From Bacilli bacterium (GTDB lineage Bacteria; Bacillota_I; Bacilli_A; JAJDGJ01), in the NCBI GenBank assembly GCA_031289255.1, contig JAITPW010000071.1:1-41168 (forward strand): a stretch of 41,168 bases of DNA, given 5' to 3'. The translations under genes and the position numbers were made by a program. Below, piece after piece: positions 24,848 through 30,364 of the stretch. A model generated the notes under the pieces. The model did no database searches, was not told where the DNA came from, and saw only the letters and a list, made by a program, of their open reading frames with translations. Each line of letters starts with the position of its first letter. Position 1 is the stretch's first letter.

Positions 24848-26737
24848 CTATATTTCGCTATTTATTACGATATCATTTATTATTTTTAAACATTCATCAA
24901 TATCTTGATAAGTTGTTTGATAATTAGTTACACTAATTCTCATGACATCCTCACCATGCCATTTATTACAATTAACATATAATACTTTAGTATCATTTAT
25001 CCTTTTAACTAATTGGGCACTACCGGCCTTATCTTCATAAAAACAAAGAATCTGATTAAAAAAGATTTCATTAATAATAGTAAATCCAATATTACTTAAA
25101 CCTATCGCAAAGTACTTACTTAGAGCATGTAATTGTAAAACCAATTCCCCTAAACCAGTCACTCCTAATGATTTAATACTAGCCCATATTTCAATACTCT
25201 GTGATCGCTTGGACATATCATTAGTAAAATCCATACTATTTCTAAGATCATCATCATCCATAATATTATTTAATGAATTAAGATAAGCTTTTTTATCTTT
25301 ACATAAAATCATCCCACAATCATAAGGAGTATTAAGTGTTTTATGACCATCACATACCCAAGAATGAGCTTTATTTAAATCTTTAGTAAGATATCGTAAT
25401 GATGGACATGCTTGGACATATAAGCCAAAAGCACCATCAATATGAATCCAAGCTTTCGTAGTTTTCGTTTTAGCATATACTTTACTAAAATCATCATAAC
25501 TACCCGTTAAAAGATTACCAGCTTGCAATATAATAATAGTATGATCATCGACATTAGTAATATCATCTACTTTGATACGACCTTGATCATCAGTATCAAT
25601 AATGGTAAGTTGTGATGTTTTTAGACCTAAGATATTAAAAATTTTATTAAAAGTGAAATGAGCTTGATTACTAATAATAATCTTAGCCTGTTCTCTATTT
25701 TCTCCTACTAAGCTTATTAAAGCTGCATTAATCGCAAGAAGATTACCACCAGCACTCCCTCTAACTAATCCTAAACTTGTTTCACTGGGTAAATCAAAAA
25801 GTTTAATAAACCATTTTTCTAAGATTACTTCTAATTGATTACTAAGAAAAGACATATCATAAACAGCACTGTTTTGATCCCAAATAGTACTTATTAACTT
25901 CGCATATAGACCACTTGGTAATATGCCGCCTACAACATAACCAAAGTATTTTGGTGAGTTAGTATTGACGATATTATTTTCATAACTCATTAACTCTTTA
26001 AGAATACTCGTACTCGAACATGGTAATTCATTAAGCTGATCATCGATATTAGTTAATTCACTCATGATGGGTTTTTGTTTAACTTCTGAGGCATATTTTT
26101 TAATATATTGGGCAATATCATCAATATTATCGTTAAAAACTTCCTTATTTATATTAGCAATAATATTACTTTTAAATAAATTATTATTCATATAAGCTTC
26201 ATAATAACGAGCTATTTTACTAAGTTGATTAGCTTGATAATTAATATGATAAGTACTTAGAAAGGCTTTTAAATATTCTTCATTATCATAATCATTAGCT
26301 TCAAATTCTATTTCATAATCAATTTTATTAAAATAATGAGATAAATCTAGACAAATAAGTCCTTGTTCAACTTTCACTTCCAACCGTTCCGTATGTAATG
26401 AACCAAGGTATTGTAATGATAAATTCATATTATTAAAATAAGTATTTAAACATTGGGGATTATCAATGATTTTAAGAAAATCATTTTTATTAATCATGAT
26501 ATTCTTTTCTAAAACATCATCTTTTCGTTTAGTCTTTAAACATATCTCATAAGTATTATTTTTTTCTCTAATCCGTAAGGCTTGTTCTTTATTCTTAAGT
26601 TCATCATGTATATCATTAAAATAATGATTTATTTGATGGTATTGAGTAAAAGAAAAATTATTAATAAGATCTTTTCTTATTAATAAATATTCCTTCCTAT
26701 TCAATAAATGTTTATATTCTATTTCAATATTTTGCAA
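24848..26737 (-). CDS. CYTH-domain / group II PLP-dependent decarboxylase fusion
   Basis: 629 residues with two domains. Residues 1-182 form a CYTH (triphosphate tunnel) domain: EIEYKHLL at 4-11, ALRIREK, TYEICLKTKR, TERLEV, DYEIEFE and the final KIARYYEAY. Residues about 200-629 form a fold type I PLP decarboxylase of the glutamate/aromatic amino-acid group: RGSAGGNLLA, H360, IHIDGAFG (D434) and the PLP lysine in DGHKTLN (K466). CYTH domains usually cleave triphosphates such as thiamine triphosphate or polyphosphate. The start is TTG with AAAGG upstream. M183 lies at the junction but has no ribosome binding site, so a single fused product is likely. Substrates of both halves are unknown. It sits 17 bases after ffh. 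Confidence 0.85.
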   Translation of the reverse strand: MQNIEIEYKHLLNRKEYLLIRKDLINNFSFTQYHQINHYFNDIHDELKNKEQALRIREKNNTYEICLKTKRKDDVLEKNIMINKNDFLKIIDNPQCLNTYFNNMNLSLQYLGSLHTERLEVKVEQGLICLDLSHYFNKIDYEIEFEANDYDNEEYLKAFLSTYHINYQANQLSKIARYYEAYMNNNLFKSNIIANINKEVFNDNIDDIAQYIKKYASEVKQKPIMSELTNIDDQLNELPCSSTSILKELMSYENNIVNTNSPKYFGYVVGGILPSGLYAKLISTIWDQNSAVYDMSFLSNQLEVILEKWFIKLFDLPSETSLGLVRGSAGGNLLAINAALISLVGENREQAKIIISNQAHFTFNKIFNILGLKTSQLTIIDTDDQGRIKVDDITNVDDHTIIILQAGNLLTGSYDDFSKVYAKTKTTKAWIHIDGAFGLYVQACPSLRYLTKDLNKAHSWVCDGHKTLNTPYDCGMILCKDKKAYLNSLNNIMDDDDLRNSMDFTNDMSKRSQSIEIWASIKSLGVTGLGELVLQLHALSKYFAIGLSNIGFTIINEIFFNQILCFYEDKAGSAQLVKRINDTKVLYVNCNKWHGEDVMRISVTNYQTTYQDIDECLKIINDIVINSEI

Positions 26738-26754
26738 AGTATCATAACCTTTAC

Positions 26755-28116
26755 TTAAAATTTCTTATTCTTCAACATTCCCATCATATCTTTCATGTTA
26801 GTAGGCATCTTACCACTACTCATCATGCCCCCAACTTGCTTCATCATCTTTTTCATACTTTCATATTCTCTTAGTACTTTATTGATTTCCACATTATTAA
26901 GACCACATCCTCTAGCGATACGTTCTTTACGTTTAGCTTTAATTAATTGAGGATTTCTTCGTTCTTTAGGTGTCATCGATTGAATAATAACCTTGGTCTT
27001 CTTTAGTTTATCACTAGCTTTAGCTTCTTCTTCATCACTTAATTTAGGCATTCCTGGTAACATTTTAGCAATTGAACCCAAAGATCCTAATTTATTAACT
27101 TGTTCCATCTGCTCAAGCATATCTTCTAAATCAAAATGCCCACTCATCATACGATCAGCTAATTTACCAGCCTTTTTCTCATCAATGACATTAGTAGCTT
27201 TTTCAATTAGCGAAATAACATCACCCATCCCCAACATACGTGAAACCATACGCTCCGGATAAAACAAATCTATTTGATCAAGTTTTTCTCCAGTACCGAT
27301 AAATTTAATAGGTACCCCAGTGATATGTTTAATTGATAAGGCCGCTCCCCCTCGTGAATCACCATCTAATTTAGTAAGAATGGCCCCTGTAATACCTAGT
27401 TGTTCATGATAAGATTGAGCCACATTAATAGCATCTTGACCAGTTAATGAATCAACAACTAACATAATTTCATCAGGATTAACTAAGTTCTTAATATCAA
27501 TTAATTCTTGCATTAATTCAGTATCTAAATGTAAACGTCCAGCTGTATCGATGATAATTAAATCATTATCATTATCATTAGCATAATTAAGACCATTTTC
27601 TACAATAAGTCGGGGATTATTTTTCCCTTGTTCAAAGACTGGAATATTAAGTTGTTTTCCAATCGTAATTAACTGATCAATAGCTGCTGGTCGATAAATA
27701 TCAGCTGCTATTAACAATGGTTTTTTATGATAATTTTTAGCCAATAAATTAGCAAGTTTTCCACTGGTCGTTGTTTTACCAGCTCCCTGTAAACCAACCA
27801 TCATAATAATTGTAGGTTTATTATTATTAAATTTTATTTCATTTAAAGAATCTCCAAAGAGATGAACTAGTTCATCATTAACAATTTTTACAACCATTTG
27901 TCCTGGATTTAATTGATTAATAACATCTTGTCCTAAAGCTTGTTCTTTAATATTCGCAATAAATTCTTTTACAACCAGGTAATTAACATCAGCTTCTAAT
28001 AATGCTAATCGTATTTCTTTAAACATCACATCCATATTTTCAGATGTTAGAGTGTGTTGTCCTTTTATTTTTTTTATACTAGCTTGTAAACGTTCCCCTA
28101 AATTTTCAAATGCCAT
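26755..28116 (-). CDS. ffh: Signal recognition particle protein Ffh
   Basis: 453 residues: N domain (1-90), GTPase G domain with P-loop GLQGAGKTT (108-116), DTAGR and TKLDGDSRGG, and a methionine-rich M domain (about 300-453) with GMPKLSDEEE and the RNA-binding RIARGCG. It binds signal sequences at the ribosome and targets them to SecYEG through FtsY. The ATG at 28116 is chosen over an upstream in-frame ATG because AGGTGAG lies just before it and the promoter overlaps the upstream one. It heads the operon ffh-CYTH/PLP-abcF-DUF71. Common ffh neighbours ylxM and rpsP are absent. Confidence 0.98.
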   Translation of the reverse strand: MAFENLGERLQASIKKIKGQHTLTSENMDVMFKEIRLALLEADVNYLVVKEFIANIKEQALGQDVINQLNPGQMVVKIVNDELVHLFGDSLNEIKFNNNKPTIIMMVGLQGAGKTTTSGKLANLLAKNYHKKPLLIAADIYRPAAIDQLITIGKQLNIPVFEQGKNNPRLIVENGLNYANDNDNDLIIIDTAGRLHLDTELMQELIDIKNLVNPDEIMLVVDSLTGQDAINVAQSYHEQLGITGAILTKLDGDSRGGAALSIKHITGVPIKFIGTGEKLDQIDLFYPERMVSRMLGMGDVISLIEKATNVIDEKKAGKLADRMMSGHFDLEDMLEQMEQVNKLGSLGSIAKMLPGMPKLSDEEEAKASDKLKKTKVIIQSMTPKERRNPQLIKAKRKERIARGCGLNNVEINKVLREYESMKKMMKQVGGMMSSGKMPTNMKDMMGMLKNKKF

Positions 28117-28135
28117 ATTCTCACCTCGTTGCATT

Positions 28136-28164
28136 ATTATATCATTTTTAGACATTCTAAACAA
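28136..28164 (-). promoter_or_regulatory. Promoter of the ffh operon
   Basis: On the minus strand TTGTTT (28159-28164), a 17-base spacer ending in TGA, then TATAAT (28136-28141): a -35 plus extended -10. The predicted transcript starts about a dozen bases before the ribosome binding site of ffh. Confidence 0.75.
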
Positions 28165-28212
28165 TGAACATTCTTTGACTAATATTCATAACGATGTAAT
28201 GACTTCATTATT

Positions 28213-28235
28213 AAAAAAACCAGTATTGCTACTAG
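28213..28235 (-). terminator. Terminator after the 68-residue membrane-protein gene
   Basis: On the minus strand CTAGTA pairs with TACTGG (one G-U) around a GCAA tetraloop, followed by seven Ts. It lies 20 bases after the small gene and upstream of the ffh promoter, supporting the small gene as a separate transcript. Confidence 0.7.
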
Positions 28236-28256
28236 ACTATAATTAAGTTGCTATCT

Positions 28257-28463
28257 TTATTTAATAATATCATCTATTAAATGACTAATCATCGAGATGG
28301 CAAACATTATTCCTATGGAAGTTAAAAAAATTCGCTTTACCTCATCAAAACCCTCTTCGACTTCACTTTCACTATCCTTAAAAACAAGTATAAATATACC
28401 TATAACAATAAGTGTTTTTATACCAAAACTAATATAAAAATTACTGATATTTTCAGCTAGCAA
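28257..28463 (-). CDS. Small two-helix membrane protein of unknown function
   Basis: 68 codons from a TTG start. The product has a hydrophobic helix (about 14-28), an acidic loop (DSESEVEEGFDEV), and a second hydrophobic helix (about 45-60). I recognise no family. No clear ribosome binding site precedes the TTG and no in-frame ATG exists near the N-terminus, so the start is weak. In its favour are the alternation of hydrophobic and charged segments and the terminator directly downstream. It could be part of an older, longer gene. Confidence 0.5.
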   Translation of the reverse strand: MLAENISNFYISFGIKTLIVIGIFILVFKDSESEVEEGFDEVKRIFLTSIGIMFAISMISHLIDDIIK

Positions 28464-28839
28464 CCTAGCAATACCTAGAATAATGCTTTGAGAATAATAC
28501 TAAAATTAAATTTTTTTCATCATCATAAATACCCAAGAAAATATCTATTAAAAAAATGGTTGAATAATCTTACTAAGAATATCTTAACATCATTTATCTT
28601 GATTATAATTAAATTCTCCATATTTTAATTTAGATATCTTTCTATCTTTCTCATAAATTTCTCTAATGTCTATACAAACACTACCATTAATATTATAAAA
28701 GACATTAAATTATTAATCAATAATAACCTTAAAATACAATAACATAATATTAATACTAATAATTATGAATCTATCTTATCTAGAGATCACTTAGTAGTTA
28801 TAAATGATTAAATATCCATATTTAATCATTGCTCTTTAT
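28464..28839. other. AT-rich intergenic stretch with no recognised gene
   Basis: About 375 bases of very AT-rich DNA. There is a perfect 13-bp inverted repeat at 28803-28830 (AATGATTAAATAT / ATATTTAATCATT). A 39-codon open stretch on the minus strand (28590-28709) contains CIDIREIYEKDRK but has no start codon. These could be decayed gene fragments, but no function can be assigned and neither is called as a gene. Confidence 0.6.
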
Positions 28840-28868
28840 TTGCATATTTTCTAATATTAATTTATAAT
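28840..28868 (+). promoter_or_regulatory. Promoter of the orphan SAM riboswitch
   Basis: TTGCAT (28840-28845), a 17-base spacer, then a perfect TATAAT (28863-28868). The predicted start near 28875 coincides with the 5' strand of the riboswitch P1 helix, so the RNA would consist almost only of aptamer and terminator. Confidence 0.7.
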
Positions 28869-28873
28869 AGCAA

Positions 28874-28971
28874 TGACATCAAGAAAGACTGAGGGACAGG
28901 CCCGATGAAGTCTTAGCAGCCTGCATTATGCAAGGTGCTAAATCCTGCAGATTAATTTCTGGAAGATGCTA
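28874..28971 (+). ncRNA. SAM-I (S-box) riboswitch aptamer
   Basis: The conserved S-box core is present in order: AAGA, the P2 strand AAGACT, GAGGGACAGGCCCGATGA with the kink-turn/pseudoknot elements, the P2 return strand AGTCTT, AGCAGCC, the P3 hairpin TGCATTATGCA, AGGTGCTAAATCCTGCAG and GGAAGATGC. P1 is formed by TGACATC (28874-28880) and GATGCTA (28965-28971) with one mismatch. P4 pairs CAGA with TCTG. S-box RNAs bind S-adenosylmethionine and end transcription of methionine or cysteine genes. Here the next plus-strand sequence after the terminator holds no gene; the neighbour is convergent. It may be a trans-acting RNA or a relic. Confidence 0.92.
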
Positions 28972-28984
28972 TAAATAAAATTTT

Positions 28985-29012
28985 ATGCATTCTTTCTAAG
29001 AATGCATTTTTT
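28985..29012 (+). terminator. Expression-platform terminator of the SAM riboswitch
   Basis: ATGCATTCTT pairs with AAGAATGCAT (10 bp) around TCT, followed by five Ts. GAAGATGC in the 3' strand of P1 can alternatively pair with GCATTCTT of the terminator (with wobbles), which is the usual antiterminator arrangement. The switch therefore looks mechanically intact. Confidence 0.85.
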
Positions 29013-29038
29013 ATTTGATGTCAAACTTTTATACTAAC

Positions 29039-29068
29039 ACTAAAAAAGGGATTAATCCCTTTTTTAGT
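29039..29068. terminator. Perfectly palindromic terminator after the M23 peptidase gene
   Basis: A 30-base perfect palindrome, ACTAAAAAAGGG-ATTAAT-CCCTTTTTTAGT, whose own A and T runs serve both strands. It ends the secA-to-M23 operon and acts as a second stop for any read-through from the riboswitch. Confidence 0.85.
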
Positions 29069-29081
29069 ATACTGATATTTA

Positions 29082-30347
29082 TTAATATGATTGACCATAA
29101 CGTAATCCTAAAAACTCATGTGGTTTTAAACGACAAACATTGGAACATGAACCAATACTTGTATAACCTAAACCAAAATAAACATCACCAGTACTGCGAT
29201 ATTGATCAATAACACTTCTAAGTGATTGTCCCGTATGACGATATACTTCAAAGTGAAGATGAGGTCCCGTTGAATTACCCGTACTACCCATATAAGCAAT
29301 AACTTGGCCTTGTTTGATTGTGGAACCAAAGCTGGCATAACCATTAAGATGACCATAAAGAAAAGTCCAGGTCGTGTTACCAACTTGATGAGCCGTAAGC
29401 ATATAGTTACCATAACCCATACCATTACCAGTAGCTAAGACAACGCCATTAGCAGGGGCATGAATTGGGGTTCCATAGTTATTCGCTAAATCGACTCCTG
29501 GATGCCACCCTCCACCAAAATCGGCTGGATAATACCAAGCAGCAGCTGTCACAACCGCATGAGCTACCGGATTGACAAACCCTTTAGACTCTTTACCACC
29601 AGTAACATCATTAATATTAATGTTATTAAGTTTACTATTATAAACAGCATTATTTTTCTGTTCAGCTTGTAATTTAGTAAAAAGTTCGGCTTCTTTAGAA
29701 TAGTAATCTTTTAACATTGTTTTTTGTTCGTTTTGTGATTCTTCTAATTCTTTTTTACTATTTTGCAGTTCAACTTGTTTCTTTTTTAATTGAACTTTTA
29801 TATCATCTAAATCATGAATAACTTGATTATTAGCATCATTAATGGCATTAATACCATCCATTTTAGTAAGAAAATCATCAAGATTATTAGAACTCATCAA
29901 AAAATCTACCACAAAATTTTCCGTATTCATTTCTTGCATCATCGTTAAGCGTTCTAATACTTCATTTTCTAAAGCTTTAATTTCTTTTTCTTTAGCTTGA
30001 ATATTATTTTTAGTCGCAATAATTTGTTTTTTCTTTTCTTCAATAATAACACTATTTTTCTTAATCAAATCTAATAATTTAGAAATATCACCTTTAGTAT
30101 TTTCAATTTCTTCTTTTAAATTAAGCTGTGATTGTTTACTATTAGCCGCTTGATTTTTTAGATAACGCTCATAACCTTGACATACTGTTTTATTGGCATT
30201 ATAACTAGATCTTTTATTACATAGCTTTTGATAATAAGCTTCATTAGCTCCATAATTAATTTCACCCTTGATACTTAAAGAACAAATAATCAATAATACC
30301 ATCAAAATACTGAAGCCAATACTAATAATACTTATTTGTTTTTTCAT
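29082..30347 (-). CDS. Coiled-coil M23 peptidase, probable FtsEX-controlled wall hydrolase
   Basis: 421 residues: a membrane anchor or signal sequence (about 5-25), a long coiled coil (about 60-235, EKEIKALENEV and similar), then an M23/LytM domain (about 255-375). The zinc-site pattern is complete: HPGVDLANNYG supplies the first His and Asp, and HLHFEVY the catalytic HxH. The C-terminus adds about 30 residues with two cysteines (GSCSNVC). The architecture matches EnvC, PcsB and CwlO, the amidase activators or endopeptidases gated by FtsEX, and ftsE-ftsX lie directly upstream. The ATG at 30347 fits the GGAGG site (seven bases); one at 30353 is too close. Confidence 0.9.
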   Translation of the reverse strand: MKKQISIISIGFSILMVLLIICSLSIKGEINYGANEAYYQKLCNKRSSYNANKTVCQGYERYLKNQAANSKQSQLNLKEEIENTKGDISKLLDLIKKNSVIIEEKKKQIIATKNNIQAKEKEIKALENEVLERLTMMQEMNTENFVVDFLMSSNNLDDFLTKMDGINAINDANNQVIHDLDDIKVQLKKKQVELQNSKKELEESQNEQKTMLKDYYSKEAELFTKLQAEQKNNAVYNSKLNNININDVTGGKESKGFVNPVAHAVVTAAAWYYPADFGGGWHPGVDLANNYGTPIHAPANGVVLATGNGMGYGNYMLTAHQVGNTTWTFLYGHLNGYASFGSTIKQGQVIAYMGSTGNSTGPHLHFEVYRHTGQSLRSVIDQYRSTGDVYFGLGYTSIGSCSNVCRLKPHEFLGLRYGQSY

Positions 30348-30364
30348 TGACATCCCTCCTTTAG

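Follow-up and report, generated by a model that had tools for sequence, protein, structure and literature searches.

What does a riboswitch do when there is no gene behind it? The question is posed by a SAM-I (S-box) riboswitch, a sensor of S-adenosylmethionine (SAM), on contig C12 of a Bacilli genome, G000 (1.2 Mb, 91 contigs). This contig, 41,168 nucleotides long, is the whole stretch of DNA that we analyzed and is called the window below. Downstream of the riboswitch, we found no plus-strand gene for it to regulate. We consider it likely that this orphan serves as the sensor part of a small RNA (sRNA) that is gated by a riboswitch, acts in trans, and controls metK, the SAM synthetase gene. 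We also favor, with somewhat less assurance, a fuller account in which the riboswitch has been split: by gating read-through, the detached sensor probably controls production of an antisense seed, which in turn activates the distant metK mRNA by pairing with its 5′ end. A trans switch would have taken the place of a cis one, and seed and target would have coevolved within one order. The order is represented by four genomes: G000; G001, from the same genus; and G002 and G003, from a sister genus of the same family. Viral contigs gave no match to further family members.

Seed and predicted target of the orphan RNA

Between the first terminator of the riboswitch (T1) and a second one (T2) lies the seed, ACUUUUAUACUAAC, whose complementarity to the metK leader is perfect over 14 nucleotides. 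The matching site, GUUAGUAUAAAAGU, starts 7 nucleotides past an extended −10 element (TGCTATAAT) upstream of metK in G000, and the predicted metK mRNA start in this genome is the GUUAGUAU site. The same 7-nucleotide distance from an extended −10 element (TGN TATAMT), from which the mRNA starts were predicted, is found in all three metK promoters compared; the leader in G003/G002 begins GUUAAUUUGAAGGU, with its spacing from TATACT as in G000. The first-pass annotation, a reading of the sequence without database searches, had suggested looking for mRNA targets complementary to the RNA, and metK is the one that emerged.

Pattern searches of the genome, in which up to two mismatches were allowed, matched the 14-mer exactly at just two places in G000, the sRNA and the metK leader, against 0.06 copies expected. 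The G003/G002 counterpart likewise occurs exactly twice in G002, and G003 has two more copies of it, both within open reading frames (ORFs). As other targets, these extra G003 matches were set aside for their position inside ORFs, as was a one-mismatch match on contig C26 in DNA that shows no evident gene start. Among 20,158 tiles of the G000 DNA covered, the metK leader ranks first for the G000 seed. When the tail was shuffled 20,000 times with its dinucleotides preserved, 3 to 6 shuffles gave complements as long as those observed (14, 12, and 12 nucleotides). A further shuffle test, based on energies and on long tails, reached only moderate significance (1, 20, and 29 per 1,000) and is superseded by complement length and by the duplexes compared across genera.

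In G003/G002, the tail between the terminators reads AUCUUCAAAUUAAC in place of the G000 seed. The seed differs between the genera at 5 of 14 positions and the target at 4 of 14, with every one of the 14 pairs preserved: four changes are two-sided and compensatory, one turns C-G into U-G, and none breaks a pair. Cognate duplexes are predicted at −17.5 (G000), −19.1, and −16.7 kcal/mol, versus −7.8 and −4.5 kcal/mol for cross-genus duplexes. The complementarity, its uniqueness, and the coevolution of its two sides are thus established by the comparison, and by these measures the orphan RNA is one predicted to base pair with a distant leader.

Once exposed, the 14-nucleotide single-stranded seed would pair with positions +1 to about +14 of the metK mRNA. 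In the cell, a duplex at the extreme 5′ end would most likely keep RNase J from entering the mRNA at that end and raise MetK when SAM is scarce. All four genomes encode RNase J (TIGR00649 above cut-off). There is precedent for such protection: pairing of RoxS at the extreme 5′ end of yflS in Bacillus subtilis blocks RNase J1 and increases expression (PMC5419742), and FasX protects the 5′ end of ska in Streptococcus pyogenes (PMC4691137). RoxS and FasX resemble the orphan RNA in the mechanism proposed here for metK; unlike it, they have no riboswitch. The metK site lies ∼15 to 20 nucleotides upstream of the Shine-Dalgarno sequence, and masking +1 to +14 produced no consistent change in Shine-Dalgarno accessibility in folds from three genomes. 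Unmasking of the Shine-Dalgarno sequence was rejected on this ground, and 5′-end protection is the preferred model because masking opens that sequence inconsistently.

Known duplexes between sRNAs and leaders are mostly repressive, and the same sRNA and target could form one that represses metK, through RNase III cleavage or a block of initiation, so that metK falls at low SAM and methionine. In G003, blocking +1 to +14 does lower the predicted accessibility of the Shine-Dalgarno sequence. We regard repression as unlikely, however, as the site occupies the very 5′ end of the mRNA, the accessibility effect is inconsistent across the three genomes, and lowering metK expression at low SAM would run counter to the usual logic, that of OFF-type SAM-I riboswitches on metK in G001 and at many loci of the class. 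Activation at low SAM would have the same sign as the cis SAM-I on metK in G001.

The shared 14-mer could also be read as DNA, with the two copies serving as opposite-strand sites of one transcription factor and their changes tracking the specificity of the factor. The motif is common to both loci, and matched changes at two sites would also be expected of a protein coevolving with its sites. On the other hand, the motif is not palindromic; it lies between the two terminators of the sRNA gene, away from the sRNA promoter; relative to sRNA transcription it is antisense, and its start coincides with metK +1; and the G003/G002 copies differ by precisely the change that yields a G-U pair. For these reasons, and with exact copies numbering just two in G000 and in G002, we consider a DNA operator quite improbable.

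The sensor and its predicted read-through product

The features of the locus are collected in Table 1. RF00162 is the only riboswitch family matched in the window, where no cobalamin aptamer was found, and its score is well clear of the curated cut-off of 44.4 bits; the search of the whole 1.2-Mb genome found one SAM-I riboswitch. The corresponding loci in G003 (L006) and G002 (L009) carry aptamers 84 to 85% identical to it. The covariance match bears out the complete S-box aptamer of the first-pass annotation. Its statement that pairing is intact in every helix holds in that all helices are present, but P1 carries an A-C mismatch.

Table 1 Coordinates of the orphan riboswitch locus in the window and of its predicted target in G000
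Feature	Position	Strand	Remarks
ffh (SRP54)	26755-28164	−	Pfam PF00448/PF02978; divergent, on the other flank
Predicted sRNA promoter	28840-28868	+	−35 TTGCAT 28840-28845; 17-nucleotide spacer; −10 TATAAT 28863-28868
SAM-I (S-box) aptamer	28873-28972	+	RF00162, 81.1 bits, E 1e-17, full length 1-108
P0 5′ arm, UGACAUCAA	28874-28882	+	At predicted 5′ end; overlaps 5′ strand of P1; partner 29015-29023
Predicted sRNA start	G28875	+	From sequence
Antiterminator	28961-28996	+	Region of P1 3′ strand pairs with 5′ half of T1
Terminator T1 (predicted to be SAM dependent)	28985-29012	+	10-bp stem (hairpin 28985-29007) and U-run
P0 3′ arm, UUGAUGUCA	29015-29023	+	Only in read-through RNA; exact 9-nucleotide complement of UGACAUCAA
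Seed, ACUUUUAUACUAAC	29025-29038	+	Antisense to predicted first 14 nucleotides of metK mRNA
Terminator T2	29040-29067	Both	Bidirectional palindrome, CTAAAAAAGGGATTAATCCCTTTTTTAG
m23, M23 peptidase (PcsB/EnvC-like)	29082-30353	−	Pfam PF01551, PF24568; convergent; stop codon at 29082
metK seed site, GUUAGUAUAAAAGU	G000:C67:718-731 (outside window)		Predicted mRNA +1 to +14
metK (SAM synthetase) coding sequence	G000:C67:761-1930 (outside window)		

Transcription would start from the promoter that had been recognized by its TATAAT box. Judged as a pattern match by itself, this promoter does not exceed chance (6 such sites seen versus 9 expected), but its spacing and its position relative to the aptamer are kept in the two relatives, whose promoters read TTGCAC-17-TATTAT and TTGCAT-17-TATCAT; the layout shared by all three genomes is TTGCAT/TTGCAC, a 17-nucleotide spacer, TATNAT, 6 to 7 nucleotides, and GACATC. 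The terminator scan returned two hits, the two strands of the T1 hairpin, against 0.2 expected. Antiterminator and T1 had been proposed from the letters alone and prove to be mutually exclusive hairpins, at −11.0 versus −10.2 kcal/mol in G000, −13.8 versus −8.5 kcal/mol in G003, and −13.7 versus −10.9 kcal/mol in G002. With aptamer and alternative hairpins established, the orphan has the sequence of an OFF-type SAM-I switch upstream of the seed and is predicted to bind SAM. The claim that nothing on the plus strand is left to control also stands, m23 being the next gene and on the minus strand; a hidden plus-strand gene was considered and rejected, as no sizeable ORF is present and the RNA contains no small conserved ORF preceded by a Shine-Dalgarno sequence.

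When SAM is ample, the aptamer would keep P1, T1 would form, and the product would be an RNA of ∼138 nucleotides without the target-pairing sequence. When SAM is low, the antiterminator would form, and transcription would read through T1 to T2, yielding an sRNA of ∼193 nucleotides. The locus had been described as a self-contained unit of ∼140 nucleotides; this description overlooked T2 and the conserved stretch before it, and the unit extends past the first terminator. Since the target-pairing stretch lies beyond T1, the terminated RNA of ∼140 nucleotides is probably inactive and the low-SAM read-through RNA of ∼193 nucleotides probably the active form.

The stretch between T1 and T2 holds two conserved elements, the seed and the 3′ arm of a helix that we call P0. 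In the read-through RNA, UUGAUGUC would take the RNA's own 5′ end to form P0, dismantling P1, closing the RNA, and sequestering its 5′ end. Because P0 takes the 5′ strand of P1, it is expected only in read-through RNA and would exclude the SAM-bound fold. The helix was judged on the sequences themselves, as a full-length MAFFT alignment misplaces it in G000. Its counterparts in G003/G002 are AGACAUCAA/UUGAUGUCU, with a double change at the outer pair, from U-A in G000 to A-U there, and its six inner pairs have a probability of 1.0 in full-length folds from all three genomes. In the same kind of fold, the seed is predicted to be unpaired (0.92 to 1.0) in G000 and mostly open in G002. T2 would end both the read-through sRNA on the plus strand and the M23 peptidase transcript on the minus strand. 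Equivalent hairpins are present in L006 and L009, and an m23 terminator is found also in L031, a locus that belongs to G001 (metK 100% identical, matching place on the contig).

Upstream of the sRNA promoter, ∼670 bases of AT-rich DNA (28165-28838) separate it from ffh, with no gene recognizable by Pfam. A 68-amino-acid ORF in this stretch (28257-28463, minus strand) matches neither Pfam nor the loci of the relatives compared. A near-perfect inverted repeat, ATGATTAAATAT-CC-ATATTTAATCAT (28803-28830), ends ∼10 bases before the −35 element and is not evident upstream in G003; it is possibly an operator or a terminator. Beyond ffh, a 629-amino-acid ORF (24848-26737, minus strand) combines a CYTH domain at the N terminus with a pyridoxal-dependent decarboxylase domain (PF01928 and PF00282), an unusual pairing that may be a fusion.

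Locus conservation and the probable exchange of cis and trans control

A gene-less riboswitch adjoins m23, and points at it, in both G003 and G002. The neighboring m23 is 65 to 66% identical in L006 and L009 by BLAST. In G003, the interval from m23 through the riboswitch to ffh is complete, and ffh (L006 1705-3063) is 79% identical by BLAST; the G002 locus contains the m23 side and then reaches the end of its contig. Among 87 other SAM-I loci of the class Bacilli that we examined (27 and a further 60), none is gene-less: five that initially appeared empty have small ORFs led by a Shine-Dalgarno sequence or a long metK leader instead. As these 87 precede genes and two relatives share the gene-less arrangement, sequence comparison marks that state as specific to the orphan locus and conserved there.

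The first-pass annotation had argued from the intact helices against long decay, and the syntenic intervals of the two relatives agree. The finding by which it proposed to be refuted, relatives with this riboswitch ahead of a methionine gene deleted here, did not turn up, the riboswitch being gene-less in both. That the riboswitch is a relic of a lost methionine gene is barely credible: the AT-rich, gene-poor DNA upstream and the lack of a gene downstream would suit such a history, but the gene-less unit in the other genus has conserved promoter, antiterminator, T1, P0, and seed. The unit points at the 3′ end of m23, which would suit a cis-antisense RNA under S-box control and directed at the convergent ftsE-ftsX-m23 operon, modeled on ubiG of Clostridium acetobutylicum (PMC8383071, PMC2940859). 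This reading is no easier to credit: in each of the three genomes, a strong bidirectional T2 intervenes ahead of m23, SAM and the peptidase have no known connection, and the metK match is left unexplained.

In G000, G002, and G003, no SAM-I riboswitch was found in front of metK, and the orphan is the single SAM-I riboswitch of each genome. G001 has the opposite arrangement: a cis SAM-I riboswitch precedes metK (L018), an ABC-transporter cluster without a riboswitch lies between m23 and ffh, and the target motif of G003/G002 has no exact copy there. Around metK, G001 resembles G003/G002, with a divergent gene for a membrane protein of 151 to 161 amino acids. Because the metK neighborhoods of these three genomes are alike, the exchange of cis and trans control appears to have occurred around a metK that stayed put. 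Synteny and the loss of cis control are established by this comparison; the cis form may have been regained in G001, or an ancestor may have had both.

G002 also has a second metK (L120 1402-2565; G002:C1:77907-79046), 41% identical to the metK of G001 and immediately following the gene for a phage terminase small subunit; this SAM synthetase is apparently carried by a prophage. Elsewhere in the class, a 1.1-Mb genome (G011) has five SAM-I riboswitches, many for its size, including two on contig C58 with 1.7 kb between them; at the one locus read, L016, the riboswitch is accompanied by a 406-amino-acid ORF unlike metK or a methionine transporter. Four further SAM-I riboswitches (L182, L215, L223, and L183) precede Shine-Dalgarno-led ORFs of ∼50 to 100 amino acids that are not known methionine genes.

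Weighing the case against known systems

Several points weigh against the reading of the orphan as the sensor of a trans-acting regulator that activates metK. Half of the G003 seed is predicted to pair with the T2 region, and the metK site is partly paired in single-RNA folds of G003/G002. T2 also terminates m23, and that it ends the sRNA as well is accordingly something we infer. The order offers four genomes, all fragmented, with G003 62% complete, and just two distinct seed states, one of them shared by G003 and G002. The case is built on sequence comparison throughout, and sequence does not fix the sign of regulation; stabilization of metK mRNA is what we infer in preference to repression.

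The first-pass annotation had likened the orphan to SreA and SreB, SAM riboswitches of Listeria monocytogenes that act in trans on prfA and other mRNAs (PMC8383071, PMC4691137). The likeness extends to the SAM-I aptamer and, as predicted, to pairing in trans with the 5′ untranslated region of a distant mRNA, and a trans-acting sRNA is still the most likely identity, but the logic would be opposite. In SreA, the effector is the terminated, high-SAM RNA, the leader of an ordinary gene, and the riboswitch itself does the pairing. In the orphan, the pairing element lies past T1 and would appear when SAM is low, a cis gene is lacking, the predicted target is a gene of SAM synthesis, and the terminated form is probably inactive. 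Rli55 and EutX are B12-riboswitch-gated sRNAs of Listeria and Enterococcus (PMC8383071) in which, as proposed for the orphan, a riboswitch determines if the active segment of a dedicated sRNA gets made; they differ in having a cobalamin aptamer and an active part that sequesters a protein, EutV, and no mRNA. The S-box antisense RNA of ubiG in C. acetobutylicum (PMC2940859, PMC8383071) shares SAM-I-gated, low-SAM read-through into an antisense RNA, which acts in cis on the adjacent convergent operon, whereas the pairing of the orphan RNA would be short, in trans, and directed to metK. The cis SAM-I riboswitch of metK in G001 and many Bacilli has the same sensor, ligand, gene, and proposed sign; in the orphan system, sensor and gene are unlinked and would be joined by pairing. 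In the open-licence papers searched, we found no SAM-I riboswitch whose read-through product is a dedicated trans seed for a SAM synthetase mRNA. We therefore classify the orphan as a SAM-I member by its sensor and, as a system, as a new variety of trans-acting riboswitch.

Riboswitches are usually regarded as cis elements, and the few known to act in trans came to light one at a time, chiefly in pathogens. In the present case, sequence comparison by itself ties a gene-less riboswitch to a distant target, with compensatory changes that are intermolecular. Others may be found by the same recipe: a gene-less riboswitch followed by a second terminator, and between the two terminators a tail that matches the start of an mRNA from the same pathway. 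For this order, the comparison lays out a route by which a cis switch would become a trans regulator, the cis form being present in G001, a relative within the same genus.
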